The notes below the pieces were generated by a model, which saw only the letters and a program-made list of their open reading frames with translations, searched no databases and was not told where the DNA came from. A DNA stretch of 64,000 nucleotides from Micavibrio sp. GTDB lineage: Bacteria; Pseudomonadota; Alphaproteobacteria; Micavibrionales; UBA9664. The DNA lies in NCBI GenBank assembly GCA_002699085.1, contig PAAR01000009.1:133725-197724 (forward strand). Reading direction: 5' to 3'. Shown here piece after piece: positions 8,209 through 43,796 of this stretch; the stretch's first letter is position 1, and the number at the start of each line of letters is the position of its first letter. The translations under genes were made by a program, and so were the position numbers.

Positions 8209-8715
8209 TTAAGAGGCTTTTTTCATTGTTGTCGGAATAGACTGAATCGTTTGCGCTATTAACGCATCATTTTCTTTTTTGCCTAGCTGGTTTGTGATGA
8301 TCTCTAATGTTGCTGTTGTTGCAACATCTGTAATTTGCTGACGGATTTCAGTAACAGCTTTTTCTTCAATACGAGCAATACGTTCTTTTAGCTGATGGTC
8401 ACGCAATGTAATCGTGCGTTCGGTTTCAATGGCAATGTTTTTGGTGAGTTCTTCTGCTTGTTTTTTAGAAGAGGCAATCATCGCATCTGTTTCTTTGATG
8501 ATGTCTTTTTGCTTACGTTTATATTGAGCAACAAGCTCTTGTGCTTCAAAGCGCAGATTTTCAGCTGTTTGAATGTCTGTTTTAATTTCTTCAATACGGC
8601 CATCAATCATCCCTAGAAGAGCTGTCTTTGCATGTTTGAAAGCAAAAACCACAAAAATGACAAAGGCCAATGCTACCCAAGTTGTTGTACTTTGGAAAAT
8701 GATAGATAAATCCAT
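8209..8715 (-). CDS. atpF: ATP synthase F0 subunit b
   Basis: This 168-residue subunit of the peripheral stalk has one N-terminal membrane helix at about residues 10-27 (TTTWVALAFVIFVVFAF). A long charged helix follows that would reach along F1 to the delta subunit. It is paired with a second, different b-type gene immediately upstream (b'), the arrangement of alphaproteobacteria and phototrophs, where a b/b' heterodimer replaces the b homodimer. The gap to the b' stop is two bases. Confidence 0.92.
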   Translation of the reverse strand: MDLSIIFQSTTTWVALAFVIFVVFAFKHAKTALLGMIDGRIEEIKTDIQTAENLRFEAQELVAQYKRKQKDIIKETDAMIASSKKQAEELTKNIAIETERTITLRDHQLKERIARIEEKAVTEIRQQITDVATTATLEIITNQLGKKENDALIAQTIQSIPTTMKKAS

Positions 8716-10766: not shown

Positions 10767-13700
10767 TACTCAGCAGCCAATTGGTCTAAGAAGCTTTGCT
10801 GTAAATCTACAGATACGAGTTGTGAAATCCCACGTTCAGCCATGGTAACACCGTAGAGACGATCCATGCGAGCCATTGTCATACGGTGGTGCGTAATGAC
10901 CAAGAAACGAGTTTGTGTCGTTTCGGCAATTTGTTCTAAAAGGGTACAGATACGGTCAACATTTGCATCATCAAGTGGCGCATCAATCTCATCAAGTACA
11001 CAGATAGGCGAGGGATTAGTTAGGAACATTGCGAAAATAAGAGCAATAGAGGCCAGTGTCTGCTCACCACCTGAAAGAAGGCTAAGGCATTGCAGTTTCT
11101 TACCTGGTGGCTGTGCAAAGATTTCCAGACCTGAATCAAGGATGTCATCTGATTCGATTAACTCTAAATGCGCTTGCCCGCCGTCAAAAACTTGAACAAA
11201 TAGTCTTTGAAAATGTTGGTTGACGACATTAAACGCTTCGTTCATGCGTTCTCTCGCTTCTTTATTAAGCTTTTGAATAGCGCCCCGCAATTTTTGGATC
11301 GCTTCAACAAGATCGCCACGTTCTTTAGTCATGGTGTCAATTTCTTGTGCTGCTGCCTCGGCTTCTTCAGCGGCCATAAGGTTAACGGCACCGATTGATT
11401 CACGCTCACGTTTCAATTTTTCGAGCTTTTGACGACTATCATCAGCCGTTGGCAATGCTTCATCTTCTGGCCAATCAAGGTTGTTAAATATGGTTTGTGG
11501 GTCATCTAACCCTTCTGTTTCAACTTGTGTCTGTATACGCTCTAAACGTTCTTCACAGCTTGTGAGGTGGGCGGTGATAGAGGCACGCTGTTCTTTTGCT
11601 TCTGAAAGGGCTGTTTCTGCCAATTTGAGAGATTTGGTGGCTTCATTATAAGCTGTTTCAGCAATCTCTAGTTTTTCGACCGTTGCGCTACGCGTGGTCT
11701 CGAAAGAGGCGATATTGCTTAATAAGTCTTCGAGTTTATCGCTCAGCGTTTGTGGCTGCGCTTCAAGTGCTTGTATTTTTTCCGTTGTTTCAGTGCGACG
11801 TGCGGTAAAGGCATTAATGCGGCTTTGCGTTGTCTCTATACGCTGCTGAATAGCGGCAATATCGCTATTCAAAACGTCAATACGATTACGACGTGTCTCT
11901 TGCTCGTAAGAAATACGGTTAATGATTGATTCAGTTTCTGATGCTTTGGCTCGTTTAGTCTGAATATCATTAGAAAGGGCAGTGATCTCTTTTTCTTGAT
12001 CTTGTTGCTGTGTTGTTGCTTTGGCTCTTTCAATAGCAGTCTTTGCTTCTTCAAGAGCTTGTTCAGTCGTGGTTTGGTCTTGTGTTAAATTTTGTAGACG
12101 TTCTTCAAGGCGGATAATGTCCGTTTGTTTTGAAAGACTCTCTTGTTTTAAGCTTTCAATTTCTGAGGTCTTTGCGTTTAATTCAGCACTGGTTTCGCTT
12201 AATTGTTCACTGACAACATCCAATTGAGCTGTAATCTCAGCTGATTTGTCTTTTTCTTTACATAAAGAGTTTGCGGCTTTTTCAAGCGTAGTCTCTAAGG
12301 TCTTCAGTTCTTTTGTTAGTGTTTCCAGTTGCGATTTTTGCTCAAAATGCTTGGCGGTGGCGCTTTGCGAACGGCTTGTGATGATATAGCCATCCCAACG
12401 ATACACATCACCTGATTTGGTGACGGCCATTTGTCCTGGTTTAAGCGCTTTTAAAATAGTTTCAACGGGAAGCTCATCAATCACAACACCAATTTGTGAG
12501 AGACAAATTGTTAGTGCTTCTGGCGCATCTACTTTTGAAGATAACGGCTCCATAATAGCCGATAATTCAGGTAAATCTTGTGGTGTATATGAAACCATTT
12601 GCCAATATTGGTTAGCTTCTGGATCTTCCAAGGCTGCGAGCAGGGTATCTCCCATTGCCTTAGCGAGAGCGATCTCATACCCTGTCTTAGGTTTAATCGA
12701 TTCAATGACAGAAATTGCTGTTTCTTTAGTTTCTACTTTAAGTATATCTTTTAAAATATTGATTTCACTTAATATTTTTTCTTTTTTAGTGTTGCTTTCG
12801 TGCCATGCTTGCTGTGCGGTATTCTGCGCTTGGCGTGTTTTATCAAGCGCATCTGTTAAACGTTGTTTCTCTGCTTCAAGCTTTGTTTTGTCAGCTTTAA
12901 GTCCAGTAATAGCTTGCTCAAGAACAGCAATAGCGGGACGTGTGTCTTGATCGGCCAAGGCGGCAAGTTTTTGTTTGCTGTCAGCCATTTGATCGGTAAT
13001 TTGTGTAAGTTTTTGCGTATATTCATTAAAACGTGATTGAGCGGTCTCTAATGCCGCAGATGATTGAGCAGCTTGTTGTCTGGCAGTATTTAACTTTTGC
13101 TCCAATGCAGCGATATCAGCCTTTAATAAGCTTAGTTCGGCTTGTTTTTCTTCTAAAGTTTTAAGTGCTTGTTCATTGCTGTCAAAACCTTCTAGCTCTA
13201 CCTTACGTAGCGAAAGCGTTGTTTGCATAGCCGTAAGATTTTCTTTCTCAAAAATTTCATCTTCATCAATCTGTACAAGGCTTTGACGAGCATTTTCTAA
13301 ATCAGCGTCAATGCGCTTTAAGGCATCCTCGGTTGAGCGGCGCTCAATGAGTAATGATTGTAGCTGAGCCGCCAAAGTTGCATCTTCTTTACGCAATTCA
13401 GGCAGCGTAGACGCTGTTTCTGTTTGCTTTGTCGTAAGCTGTGTGACTTTGACCATTACCTCACGAATAATGCCTTCTACCTCATCAAAGCGTTGTTTTA
13501 GGCTGGTCTGCATTTCTTTGGCAGTACGCCATTCAAGATAGAAAATAAGACCTTCTAGCTCACGAATACTTTGGCTAACATTTTTATAGCGATTTGCTTG
13601 TCTGATTTGCTTTTGTAATGAAGCATAGCGTGTGCTAGCACCGCCCATGATATCGTCAAGGCGCACAAGATTTGTTTCGGCGGCTTTTAAGCGAATTTCA

Positions 13701-19157: not shown

Positions 19158-20285
<1,128 letters not shown>

Positions 20286-20303
20286 TTATTTCCTCAGACA
20301 CGA

Positions 20304-20332
20304 ATCATGAATCATTTGAGAGTCTGGGTCAA
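20304..20332 (-). promoter_or_regulatory. Predicted ccrM promoter containing GANTC
   Basis: On the minus strand TTGACC (20327-20332) is followed by 17 bases and CATGAT (20304-20309). One GANTC lies in the spacer (20320-20324) and two overlap the -10 element. This resembles GcrA/CcrM-controlled promoters of Caulobacter. A start near 20297 leaves a 24-base leader. Confidence 0.55.
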
Positions 20333-20421
20333 GGAATTAATTCATTTTAAAGTTAAAAAGAGTCATAAGAGTCAATATCTTATCATAATATCTTCATAAG
20401 TGACTCAAATGCTTATAGTTT

Positions 20422-20450
20422 TTGATTTTACTTAACTTATCGGGTATGAT
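20422..20450 (+). promoter_or_regulatory. Predicted promoter of the solute-binding protein gene
   Basis: TTGATT (20422-20427), a 17-base spacer and TATGAT (20445-20450) precede the ATG at 20480. GGAG at 20467-20470 is the ribosome binding site. Confidence 0.6.
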
Positions 20451-20479
20451 TTCGCTTAAATAAATTGGAGAGAGTCTTT

Positions 20480-39196: not shown

Positions 39197-40876
39197 GTGA
39201 GCAAAGCTCAAGTAAAATTTGATAAGAAATCTGTTTATTTCGTCCCGCTTGGTGGGTGCGGTCATTTTGGTGCTAATCTTAATTTGTACCACTATGACGG
39301 TCAGTGGCTCGCCCTTGATTGTGGTATGGGCTTTGCTGATGAGCGCTACCCTGGGGTGGATATATTGCTCCCTGATCCTTCTTTCATTGAAAAACAACAA
39401 GATAAACTTGCAGGCCTTATTATTACTCATGCGCATGAAGATCATATTGGCGGCGTTGTACAATTATGGCCGCAATTAAAATGCCCCGTCTATGCCACAC
39501 CATTTACGATGGAGGCATTGAAGAGAAAATTAGATGAAGCGCCTTATGGCAAGGATGTGCCTTTGATTGAAATTCCTAATATGGGTAAGGCTGATATCGG
39601 GCCGTTCAAAACTGAATGGGTAAATATGGCTCATTCAATTCCTGATACATCTTCAATTATTATAAAAGCAGGTGATGTTACCATCTTTCATTCTGGAGAT
39701 TGGCATTTTGATCCTAAGCCCACTGTAGGGCACAGCTGTGATGAGGCACGTCTCACACAACTTGGTAAAGAAGGTGTGCATGCTTATGTGGGTGATTCAA
39801 CCAATGCGGGTGTGCCAGGTGTGTCTGGATCTGAAAGCGATCTGCATGATGATTTTCTAAAATTATTCAAGCGTGCAAAAGGCAAAATAGGGGTCACACT
39901 CTTTTCTTCTAATATCGGCCGCTTACAAACAGTGTTGACAGCCGCCGAAGAAACAAAGCGTTATGTATGTCTTGTGGGTCGCTCATTGAAAAATATGGCG
40001 GACATCGCCACTCAGTTTGATTTGATTGATACAAGCCATATTCTCACCGAAGACCAAGCGGCGCATATGTCGAACAATCAAATCGTTTACGTGATGACCG
40101 GTTCTCAAGGCGAAGCCCGTGCCCAATTACCTAAAGTTGCCAAAGGTGAGCACCCTACGGTGTCATTAGGGCAGGGCGATATGCTGATTTTCTCAGCCCG
40201 TGCGATACCAGGTAATGAACGGGCGATCACAGATATGCGTAATCAATTAACGATTTCAGGGGTAGAGGTCGTTACCCCGCGCGATCATCATATTCATATA
40301 TCAGGCCATCCTGCTCAAGACGAAGTCTTGAAAATGTTTGATCTTATTAAGCCAAATGCCGTTATTCCTGTTCACGGTGAATATGCAATGCAATTAGCGC
40401 ATCAAAATTTAGCTAAAAAAAATAAAGTACCTTTTTCAATTCTACCTGAAAACGGGACAGTTGTTAAAATTACGAAAGATAAAATAGAGCAGGTAGGGCA
40501 GGTAGAGGCCAATCTTTTAGCCTTTGACCAAAAACGCATATTGCCATTGGATCACCCCTCTATCAGAGAACGTCGTAAACTGAGCTTTAACGGCACAGCT
40601 TTTGTGACGGTGCTTATTGGTCACGCCTTACATGATATTTTTGATATACAGCTATCAACGCTAGGGCTTCTTGATGAGGAAAGTGATGAAGGGGTAGAGG
40701 TTTTGGAAGAAATTATCGATACTATCGGTCAAGACCTTTTGACGTTGTCAAACAAAGAATGGCAAAATGATGCGATGGTAGAAGAAAAAATTCGTGTATC
40801 TACACGTCGTTATTTCCGTGATTGGCTCGGCATTAAACCAATCATAATCGCCCATCTTGTAAGGGATAGCGACTAA
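39197..40876 (+). CDS. rnj: Ribonuclease J
   Basis: This 559-residue metallo-beta-lactamase RNase has HAHEDH at residues 78-83 (zinc ligands), the beta-CASP domain in the middle and the HISGHPAQDEVL motif near residues 370-381. RNase J has 5'-3' exonuclease and endonuclease activity and takes part in rRNA and mRNA processing. Translation starts at GTG 39197, 15 bases after birA. Together with rppH in this window it would give a 5'-end-dependent decay pathway. The gene is followed by a 675-base gene-free stretch. Confidence 0.95.
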   Translation: MSKAQVKFDKKSVYFVPLGGCGHFGANLNLYHYDGQWLALDCGMGFADERYPGVDILLPDPSFIEKQQDKLAGLIITHAHEDHIGGVVQLWPQLKCPVYATPFTMEALKRKLDEAPYGKDVPLIEIPNMGKADIGPFKTEWVNMAHSIPDTSSIIIKAGDVTIFHSGDWHFDPKPTVGHSCDEARLTQLGKEGVHAYVGDSTNAGVPGVSGSESDLHDDFLKLFKRAKGKIGVTLFSSNIGRLQTVLTAAEETKRYVCLVGRSLKNMADIATQFDLIDTSHILTEDQAAHMSNNQIVYVMTGSQGEARAQLPKVAKGEHPTVSLGQGDMLIFSARAIPGNERAITDMRNQLTISGVEVVTPRDHHIHISGHPAQDEVLKMFDLIKPNAVIPVHGEYAMQLAHQNLAKKNKVPFSILPENGTVVKITKDKIEQVGQVEANLLAFDQKRILPLDHPSIRERRKLSFNGTAFVTVLIGHALHDIFDIQLSTLGLLDEESDEGVEVLEEIIDTIGQDLLTLSNKEWQNDAMVEEKIRVSTRRYFRDWLGIKPIIIAHLVRDSD

Positions 40877-40955
40877 ATCACCTGAGTCAAACCAGTCTGT
40901 CTATACTGTTCATTTTGAAAGTGCAATAGCGAATCGAGAAAGTTTTTTTATTACC

Positions 40956-40964
40956 TGTGGATAA
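40956..40964 (-). promoter_or_regulatory. Perfect DnaA box
   Basis: The plus strand reads TGTGGATAA, i.e. TTATCCACA on the minus strand, the consensus high-affinity DnaA box. GANTC sites flank it at 40884, 40931 and 40999. A weak TTTAAA-N17-TATACA promoter (40966-40994) starts two bases downstream, so DnaA could regulate it. Confidence 0.6.
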
Positions 40965-41035
40965 CTTTAAAAAGTTTTTTATAGGGGGTATACAAAACGA
41001 ATCACTTGCCCTAGATTAAAATTATATTCTTTGTA

Positions 41036-41475
41036 GAGAGTTACAAAAAGATAGAAAGCCTTAAAACTTCACTAATTTATGTAACTTTAGTTCATACAGA
41101 GTTTCGGCTTTGTGTCGTCAAACAAAGAATATAGAAACCTAAGCCTAGAGCTTAAAACGATATTTTACCAAGAATTTTATATCTTCGGATATATAAGAGG
41201 AGGTTAAAAAGAAAGCTCACTGAACTTCGGTTCTCTCTTTGCCCTTAGAAGCAAAGTAGTGTGAAAGGATTATAGAGACGACGCTGATTGCCATTCTTGG
41301 ATGGCACCTTGAGCAAGCCTCTTATAAATAGGATAGATGAATCGCTTCACGGCCTTTAAATCGCCTTTTATAAGAAAGATGTAAAAAGTTTATCAGCCTA
41401 TGACGCTATAATATGTTGGTTTTGATTTGGAAAAGCACTTTTCGTTCACTCGGAAAGTGCTTTTCTGCTTTTTGA
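41036..41475 (+). ncRNA. Unidentified highly structured RNA candidate
   Basis: The 675 bases between rnj and the next gene (40877-41551) hold no convincing protein gene but many stems. These include AGTTACA/TGTAACT (41039-41086), a hairpin at 41094-41115, TAAGC/GCTTA (41140-41154) and two cUUCGg tetraloop hairpins (41178-41193 and 41222-41233). CTTTGC/GCAAAG (41237-41256), TGCCAT/ATGGCA (41289-41306) and an 11-12 pair stem at 41321-41374 follow, with a strong terminator last. CTTTGT at 41108 can pair either upstream or perfectly with ACAAAG at 41122, so alternative folds are possible. I found no conserved RNase P, tmRNA or SRP RNA signature. It could be a long ncRNA or a leader with attenuator. 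Confidence 0.5.
41430..41473 (+). terminator. Strong intrinsic terminator of the RNA candidate
   Basis: A perfect 12-base-pair stem (GAAAAGCACTTT / AAAGTGCTTTTC) that can extend to 15 pairs, with a 6-base loop, is followed by TGCTTTTT. It lies 79 bases before the next ATG, so upstream transcription should end here unless antiterminated. Confidence 0.85.
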
Positions 41476-41551: not shown

Positions 41552-42358
41552 ATGAAATCATTAAGAATAATACTAGCAGCCACTGCTGCACCAATCGCAC
41601 TCGGTTCTTTAGCCTGTTGTTCAGCAGAAGAGGGGAAACAAGTATTTGCAGCCATAACGCAGCACGGACAAGAAAGAGCATCCACAGAGTATGGCACTGA
41701 AATGCCAGCAGAGACAAAAGAATACTCATTTATTGTTGGCCTCAATCAACCTCTAAATGAATTAGAGCCCTTATGCCAAGCTACTGGTGCCGTTTCTTGC
41801 TCGGCACAAATGTCAGATGATAACAATGAGGCTAAATTAACGCTGGCCTTTGACACTAATGATGCTGTTACACCTGCAGATGTGGCTCATATATTGGAGG
41901 CAGAAAAAAGTGTTGCATATGCAGAACAGCTTACTGATGGACAAACTGAAGTAATTATACGCTCATCGTCAACATCATCAGAAGTACTACCTGTATTAGC
42001 ACAAGAAGCAGTTGTTGGGCCTGAAATTTACTGTGAATTCCCTGAAAATACTGCTGAATACAAAGCATGTATAACGCCTAGAAATGTTAGCTTAATTGTA
42101 GGGTGGAAAGAGCCATTAAATGCAGAAGAGAAAGCTAAGGTAGCAACGGATTTATGTTGGCATATAGGTAATCAAGGTGAGTGTACGCTTACTACAAGCT
42201 ACAATCCTACGGAAATTACTTTTACCGCACTAACCAACATGCCGAACGATCAGATATTAGCAACGCTAAAAAACATGACATCCGTTCGTTATGTTGACTT
42301 GAATTCAGATGACGCCAAACCAGCCAAGAGGCTTCAGAGAGTTTTAACGCCTCAGTAA
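41552..42358 (+). CDS. Exported protein with two tandem cysteine-containing repeats, unknown
   Basis: I do not recognise this 268-residue protein. A signal peptide of about 21 residues ends at ACC; the site is a poor lipobox (S-L-A-C), so lipoprotein status is doubtful. Two similar domains follow at about 57-128 and 177-251. Each begins with a strand (FIVGLNQPLN, LIVGWKEPLN), has a cysteine pair (Cys75/Cys83 and Cys202/Cys211) and ends in a helix plus strand. This looks like an internal duplication with one disulphide per copy. GAGGAG precedes the ATG, and a terminator follows. Confidence 0.75.
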   Translation: MKSLRIILAATAAPIALGSLACCSAEEGKQVFAAITQHGQERASTEYGTEMPAETKEYSFIVGLNQPLNELEPLCQATGAVSCSAQMSDDNNEAKLTLAFDTNDAVTPADVAHILEAEKSVAYAEQLTDGQTEVIIRSSSTSSEVLPVLAQEAVVGPEIYCEFPENTAEYKACITPRNVSLIVGWKEPLNAEEKAKVATDLCWHIGNQGECTLTTSYNPTEITFTALTNMPNDQILATLKNMTSVRYVDLNSDDAKPAKRLQRVLTPQ

Positions 42359-42447: not shown

Positions 42448-42522
<75 letters not shown>

Positions 42523-42643: not shown

Positions 42644-43588
42644 CTATTTTAATTCCAATCTGACTTCAGGCCCAAATTGAGCAGGCACATAATTAGCACC
42701 TGTTCTATCAAGACATTGGAAAACTCTTTCACGACCCTCGCCAGTGTCAATTAATTGAGCACCACGGACTTTGAAGCCTTCTTCAATACTTCTTGTTTTA
42801 AGCTCACATTGGCCTTGATCTTTTAACTCCCATGCACCTGAAAGAAACGGAATGTTAATTAATCCAAATGAATCAAGTCTTGTGTTTTTAAAGTTAGGGA
42901 ACAATGTGTCTGATATCCCATCAATAGGCTTCATGATGACATCATCAGGATTTGTTGCGGCCCATTTGATGCTATTAAGATAATCATCGCCATACTGATT
43001 ACCAAAAGCACTTAACATGGTAGAAACCAGCATACCAGCTAGAACACCACCTCTACGCCAGTATCTATGCGTAAAGTTTTTGTTCATAGCGCCATTGACG
43101 GCATGTCCACCCCAGTAGCCTGCAGAAGCCAATACGGCTGTTGGTAAACTCCAGATAAAGAAGCCTGACGCACCGGTTGCTGCAATGTTGAATTGATTCA
43201 GATTACCGCCATCCAATACTAATCCACCAACGGCAGCGCCTAACGCTGCGCCCACTGATGTTAAAACGATCTCAACGCCATTATCCTTTAAAAGTCTACC
43301 CCATTGCTTGCCATAGTTTGTTAATGGCTTTTCTTGTCTAAATACATTCACAGGTAATGCAACTGTACTTGCTACTACTCTTGCAATATTCACAACAAGC
43401 TCAACAGGATCTATAATTTCTAAGAAATCTCTTTTAGCTTTACCTTTTTTTGATCGAAGAGATGCTCTCTCTCTATCCGCTAATATATCAGACGCACCTG
43501 TATGATCTAAGTCTTCTGCACTACCGCTTAGGTCTGCACTACCTTCATCCATTTCAATCATGTGCTCCATATCTTCATCACCAGCCAT
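42644..43588 (-). CDS. Multi-pass membrane protein, unknown
   Basis: I do not recognise this 314-residue protein. The first 45 residues are acidic and probably disordered. A basic stretch (SLRSKKGKAKRD) and an amphipathic helix follow, then three hydrophobic helices at about 105-125, 136-160 and 180-196. The second is Gly/Ala-rich (SGFFIWSLPTAVLASAGYWGG). The last 110 residues are soluble and contain two cysteines (GQCELK, FQCLDR). AAGGAG precedes the ATG. It lies alone between tRNA-Asn and tRNA-Cys with its own promoter and terminator. Confidence 0.75.
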   Translation of the reverse strand: MAGDEDMEHMIEMDEGSADLSGSAEDLDHTGASDILADRERASLRSKKGKAKRDFLEIIDPVELVVNIARVVASTVALPVNVFRQEKPLTNYGKQWGRLLKDNGVEIVLTSVGAALGAAVGGLVLDGGNLNQFNIAATGASGFFIWSLPTAVLASAGYWGGHAVNGAMNKNFTHRYWRRGGVLAGMLVSTMLSAFGNQYGDDYLNSIKWAATNPDDVIMKPIDGISDTLFPNFKNTRLDSFGLINIPFLSGAWELKDQGQCELKTRSIEEGFKVRGAQLIDTGEGRERVFQCLDRTGANYVPAQFGPEVRLELK

Positions 43589-43722: not shown

Positions 43723-43796
43723 GGCGCGATGGCAGAATGGTGATGTAGCGGATTGCAAATCCGCGTATGCCGGTTCGATTCCGGCTCGTGCCTCCA
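43723..43796 (+). tRNA. tRNA-Cys (GCA)
   Basis: A 74-base tRNA: acceptor GGCGCGA / TCGTGCC with one G-U pair, anticodon loop TTGCAAA with anticodon GCA, T arm GGTTCGATTCC, the U73 discriminator typical of tRNA-Cys and encoded CCA. Confidence 0.95.

Follow-up and report, generated by a model that had tools for sequence, protein, structure and literature searches.

A probable family-specific gene for a structured non-coding RNA downstream of rnj in Micavibrio

The window analyzed here is a 64,000-nucleotide stretch of a Micavibrio sp. genome (contig PAAR01000009.1). Within it, rnj (39197-40876), whose product carries Pfam RNase J domains, is separated from an ORF at 41552 by an intergenic span of 675 bases. 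A sequence-only reading had placed a structured RNA at 41036-41475, with no clear protein gene, and the coding analysis agrees: no ORF of at least 40 aa overlaps 41036-41445 on either strand, and the only ORFs of at least 40 codons in the span are minus-strand frames entering its right end, from 41446 on. The strong terminator claimed at the 3' end is borne out as well (Table 1), and this bound of the RNA stands. The 5' bound does not: because the 5' strand of helix P2 precedes 41036, we place the start near 41001, and a conserved block extends back to 40989. The transcript, which would end at the terminator, is expected to be about 470 nt long. A DNA search finds the gene in a single copy in the genome.

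We found a counterpart in Micavibrio sp. SAT33 (contig PALX01000034.1), the only genome of the same genus or family among the genomes of the order examined; the comparison rests on two sequences. In this congener, rnj (66% identical) is followed, in the same orientation, by a diverged RNA of similar length with its own terminator. The RNA gives way to a 15-bp terminator, which differs in sequence from that in the window and has a T6 run, and tRNA-Asn comes next; in both species the T run lies on the + strand only. The longest ATG/GTG/TTG frame inside the RNA is 31 codons in the window and 65 codons, elsewhere in the RNA, in the congener; no reading frame is common to the two. Two shared blocks are 94% and 79% identical between the species: the first holds TTACCTGTGGATAACTT, and the second, which is gap-free, corresponds to TATACAAA.CGAATCA....CCTA...TAAAAT.ATATTCTT.GT (BLASTN E = 6e-10). 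In the body of the RNA the helical parts are only 38-42% identical, the better-conserved segments being 41122-41155, which holds CCUAAGCC (71%), and a linker (Table 1).

Table 1. Features of the proposed RNA gene and its upstream region (window coordinates; p refers to the fold of the window sequence).
Feature	Position	Strand	Evidence and remarks
Upstream element TTACCTGTGGATAACTT	40951-40967	+	Conserved in congener, same place
Perfect DnaA box TTATCCACA, within upstream element	40956-40964	minus	Pattern match; putative DnaA binding
Start of conserved 5' block	40989-41003	+	TATACA 40989-40994 (likely -10) and GANTC 40999-41003 kept in congener; putative promoter
Proposed structured ncRNA gene	41001-41473	+	Syntenic in two species, with helices and terminator in common; non-coding; unmatched in Rfam; predicted 5' end
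P2, closing three-way junction	41022-41034 with 41122-41134	+	13 bp; p = 0.97; congener: one double change, one mismatch
P2a hairpin	41037-41045 with 41080-41088	+	Window fold and congener comparison
P2b hairpin	41094-41102 with 41107-41115	+	Congener: hairpin in place, sequence changed
Conserved sequence CCUAAGCC	41138-41145	+	Identical in both species
P3	41148-41153/41213-41218	+	Forms in congener with changed pairs: GAGCUU/AAGCUC vs GGGCG/CGCCU
P4	41163-41169/41202-41209	+	Congener, changed pairs: UUUUACC/GGU(U)AAAA vs CCUUAC/GUGAGG
P5 inner UUCG hairpin	41175-41196	+	Window sequence only
P6a and P6b hairpins	41222-41233; 41237-41256	+	Two hairpins, same place, in congener
Linker, conserved, mostly unpaired	41257-41288	+	66% identical, gap-free; ~40% in adjoining helical parts
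P7 hairpin	41289-41295 with 41300-41306	+	p = 0.95; congener counterpart
P8 arm	41320-41328/41367-41375; 41330-41332/41364-41366; inner hairpin 41338-41349	+	Congener: double changes
Intrinsic terminator	41430-41473	+	15-bp stem 41430-41465, p = 1.00; T run 41469-41473; congener: terminator of other sequence, same place

The first alternative to weigh, also raised by the sequence-only reading, is a cis-acting leader that attenuates the exported-protein gene at 41552. The RNA does lie 80 bases upstream of this gene, on the same strand, and ends in a strong terminator. However, neither the congener nor any of 53 further genomes of the order has a homologue of this gene. The congener still carries the RNA and the terminator, ahead of tRNA-Asn; the helix strands beside the terminator offer no conserved anti-terminator. 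The conserved link to a downstream gene by which an attenuator or riboswitch is recognized was not found, and we give this reading very little credence.

The downstream neighborhood has features of its own. The ORFs at 41552-42358, with an apparent signal peptide, and at 42644-43588 flank tRNA-Asn, and neither belongs to a Pfam or NCBIfam family; the site beside tRNA-Asn looks variable. Both tRNA-Asn and tRNA-Cys (42448-42522 and 43723-43796; 8502-8576 and 11834-11907 of locus L041 in the congener) are downstream of the RNA in both species, with opposite orientations in the two, which resembles the outcome of an inversion of the intervening segment. The congener has two copies of the tRNA-Asn 3' end together with the next bases (GGGTTCGAATCCGGCCCGGGGAGCCACTATCTCAAAAAGACAGAACTCTGCAC) in a span of about 120 bases (L041 8550-8725), a repeat that resembles the attachment-site scar of an integrated element.

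Helices P2, P2a, P2b, P3, P4, P6a/b, P7 and P8 correspond in place and order in the two species. For P2 the congener reads UCAUAUUCUUCGU/GCGAAGGAUAUAG, which includes one C-G/U-A double change; in either species this helix closes a junction that holds two hairpins. P7 is UGCCAUU/GAUGGCA in the window and UGCUUUGUU/GACAGAGCG in the congener; P8 is UCUUAUAAA.AGG/CCU.UUUAUAAGA in the window and CUUAU.UCAGG/CUUGG.AUAAG in the congener. The two cUUCGg tetraloops described earlier are found again, in UUCG-loop hairpins at 41178-41193 and 41222-41233. The alternative pairing proposed for CTTTGT at 41108, with either 41096 or 41122, dissolves into two separate helices: this CTTTGT pairs with 41096 in P2b, and in P2 the partner of ACAAAG at 41122 is another CTTTGT, at 41029. 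A conformational switch is not needed, since in the congener, too, those two places are taken by a hairpin and a closing helix. An outer helix, 41012-41022/41419-41429 (p = 0.78 in the window), was left out of the model, the congener having no equivalent.

Folding energy is a poor guide to this structure. The 440 bases first proposed fold at z = -1.77 and their reverse strand at z = -2.00; the stretch without the terminator is no better than its shuffles (z = 0.01). The window sequence alone would not justify calling a structured RNA. The congener RNA folds at z = -3.96, and none of its 100 shuffles reaches this stability. Compared with the predicted minimum, the comparative fold is 7-9 kcal/mol less favorable in each species, which leaves room for alternative conformations or tertiary contacts. 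A structure beyond chance is not established by energy alone; it emerges only through comparison with the congener.

That comparison was made in two ways. In model-fitted alignments of the two sequences, pairs changed on both sides number 5 of 23 in the 3' domain (2.5 in shuffles, sd 1.1) and 6 of 31 in the 5' domain (2.9 in shuffles, sd 1.1), and sliding the register lowers every measure. Because model-fitted alignments lean towards structure, we added a structure-only, sequence-blind alignment, with terminators removed. Here the real pair scores 201.2, and the highest of 138 controls 188.7 (means of 151 and 158 for 30 circular rotations, 154 and 157 for 108 dinucleotide shuffles). The shared fold is beyond chance, resting on two sequences. 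A covariation test lacks adequate power, as only two sequences exist; the compensatory changes with kept secondary structure that characterize a structured ncRNA gene are present in these two, with modest power.

The Rfam search proposed with the sequence-only reading matched no family. At gathering score, the only Rfam families in the window are two tRNAs, away from the ncRNA stretch. A permissive scan of this stretch (E <= 10) gave nothing credible: its sub-threshold matches, of which the highest in bits is PyrR (26.8 bits, E = 0.18; cut-off 54), were taken as chance. At curated score, none of 4227 Rfam 15 families, including OLE, GOLLD, ROOL and SRP, matches this RNA or that of the congener. 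The sequence-only reading had noted no conserved RNase P, tmRNA, SRP or 6S features.

A highly diverged RNase P, tmRNA or 6S RNA might nevertheless be considered: the length is RNase P-like, and the words GUGAAAGG, GAGCAAG, AAAUAGG and UAGAUGAAU resemble parts of known RNAs. However, canonical copies of all three are encoded elsewhere in the genome: RNase P RNA on contig C29 (RF00010, 298.7 bits), alpha-type tmRNA on contig C12 (RF01849, 201 bits) and 6S RNA on contig C8 (RF00013, 66 bits). The ncRNA does not reach the gathering score of any of these covariance models, and RF00010 is not matched even at E <= 10. The look-alike words are mostly absent from the congener, whose RNA likewise scores with no Rfam model. 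A degenerate RNase P RNA, suspected from these words (GAGCAAG...AAAUAGG among them), was rejected on the same grounds, and the chance that a known RNA hides here is practically negligible. As a side observation, NCBI taxonomy places Micavibrio in Bdellovibrionota, and the genome carries an alpha-type tmRNA and a CcrM-like methylase. Both are typical of Alphaproteobacteria.

Does the RNA have its own promoter? The promoter scan detects no consensus sigma-70 promoter upstream of it; what speaks for one is the conserved upstream blocks. A second alternative is that the RNA belongs to the rnj mRNA as a long, structured 3' UTR, which perhaps autoregulates RNase J by processing. In both species the RNA immediately follows rnj in the same orientation; rnj encodes an RNase; and no terminator between rnj and the RNA was found by the scan. 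Yet the strongly conserved blocks between the two resemble an upstream control region, the spacer separating them from rnj is unconserved in sequence and in length (76 vs about 220 bases), and other families have rnj without the RNA. A 3' UTR is, on balance, unlikely.

The upstream region also hints at regulation. GANTC sites are depleted about two-fold in the window (99 vs 188 expected, sd 14), and a CcrM-like methylase is encoded at 19158-20273 on the minus strand (607 bits to the CcrM model, below the cut-off of 830); for these reasons the conserved GANTC at the putative ncRNA promoter may matter. In Caulobacter, GcrA is drawn to promoters that carry CcrM marks (PMC3667746). Taken together, the DnaA box and the CcrM site, both conserved, suggest that expression of the ncRNA may depend on replication or the cell cycle.

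Two further observations concern such motifs away from the RNA. Eight GANTC sites lie within about 210 bases (20264-20476; at 20264, 20302, 20309, 20320, 20360, 20369, 20402 and 20472). This cluster, the densest in the window, falls mostly in the intergenic stretch upstream of the methylase gene and suggests methylase autoregulation. An ORF some 33 kb away from the ncRNA contains two DnaA boxes TTATCCACA spaced 12 bases apart (L043 1490-1510, contig C8 near 207869).

The same DnaA box and GANTC site, which fall within the best conserved parts, could be taken to mean that the locus is a DNA element, such as a replication or segregation site, rather than an RNA gene. Against this, helices with paired changes are conserved over about 400 nt, and an oriented terminator is present in both species. 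A replication origin in particular was rejected: both a cluster of DnaA boxes and a GC-skew minimum are absent here. We find a DNA element hardly credible.

How far does the RNA extend among relatives? An rnj relative is encoded in 54 of the 55 genomes of the order searched and, outside the family, is usually closely followed by a small protein gene. The order's other 140 genomes yielded no homologue of the ncRNA. A DNA search of 142 genomes of the order returned, besides the window's own copy, two short chance-like matches (E = 3e-4 and 8e-4 per genome), which were rejected as short, AT-rich, in unrelated surroundings and unmatched by the RNA models. The upstream double motif occurs exactly once each in the window genome and the congener, and in no other genome of the order. 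We built two covariance models, R1 for the 3' domain and R2 for the 5' domain, with the congener as a training sequence. They find the window genome and the congener (E of 3e-24 to 2e-43; for the congener, a match is built in), and neither the order (R1, R2) nor 385 genomes of the class (R1) gave a credible third member. Among weak model matches in other genomes (E of 0.02-0.6), the three inspected (L052, L053 and L056, out of a set that also comprises L057 and L060-L062) look unrelated and mostly coding. Contig scans of genomes gave the same congener only. The ncRNA has no match in plasmids or phages, nor did a pattern scan of viral contigs give any; a mobile copy was rejected, the genome having just one. 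The RNA would appear to be family-specific, or elsewhere too diverged to recognize.

OLE, GOLLD and ROOL are orphan large structured bacterial ncRNAs that came from comparative genomics (PMC12286853), and intergenic-region screens have been described (for example, PMC8632094). Like them, the Micavibrio RNA is long, non-coding and multi-helical, occupies a long intergenic region and is conserved more in fold than in sequence; unlike them, it matches no Rfam model and is known from two species only, too few for a consensus of their quality. In Caulobacter crescentus, the cell-cycle ncRNA CcnA is encoded at the replication origin, with CtrA as its presumed activator (PMC8959179). The present RNA is likewise alphaproteobacterial and possibly under cell-cycle control, here suggested by the DnaA box and GANTC; however, by synteny, the one basis of this comparison, it is placed behind rnj, where nothing points to an origin. 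With class A RNase P RNA (RF00010) it shares a similar length and some short words, but it does not match the covariance model and a canonical copy resides elsewhere. A text search of one literature collection found no large structured RNA described from Micavibrio-like bacteria. The ncRNA is in all likelihood an uncatalogued member of the known kind of orphan structured bacterial ncRNAs.

We consider that the locus quite probably holds a free-standing, lineage-specific ncRNA gene whose product, about 470 nt long, is structured and keeps its fold in both known species of the family. As expected of such a gene, it has its own terminator, a conserved orientation and no conserved reading frame. 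The suggestion of a new ncRNA in the sequence-only reading is supported by the lack of an Rfam match, the syntenic, structurally conserved counterpart and the conserved upstream element. Transcription would run rightwards from a promoter just upstream of 41001 to the terminator. The predicted layout comprises a three-way-junction 5' domain, the conserved CCUAAGCC segment, a central hairpin arm, a hairpin pair, a conserved, mostly unpaired linker and a 3' hairpin domain.

The RNA may act in trans, as no downstream neighbor is conserved. Upstream block, RNA and terminator form a unit common to both species, what lies downstream of them differs, and a trans-acting RNA with its own promoter is therefore most likely. 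Since the fold has outlasted changes in most of the helical sequence, and two weakly paired segments are conserved in sequence, the RNA would work through its shape, most likely as a protein-bound scaffold with the linker and CCUAAGCC as putative contact sites. Among the large structured RNAs of bacteria there are ribozymes, RNP cores and self-assembling particles. If this is an RNA gene, a scaffold is a plausible function, though short of an even chance; a large base-pairing regulator is only slightly less likely, and anything else is less likely again. Given a culture or a metatranscriptome, the presence, size and structure of this single-copy target are directly testable from its coordinates, the comparative fold and the two covariance models. 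We may also hypothesize, as a rather improbable reading, that it represents a new class of large structured RNA in one Micavibrio-like family, whose transcription would be timed by DnaA and CcrM methylation and which would serve as a protein-binding scaffold in the cell or predatory cycle.
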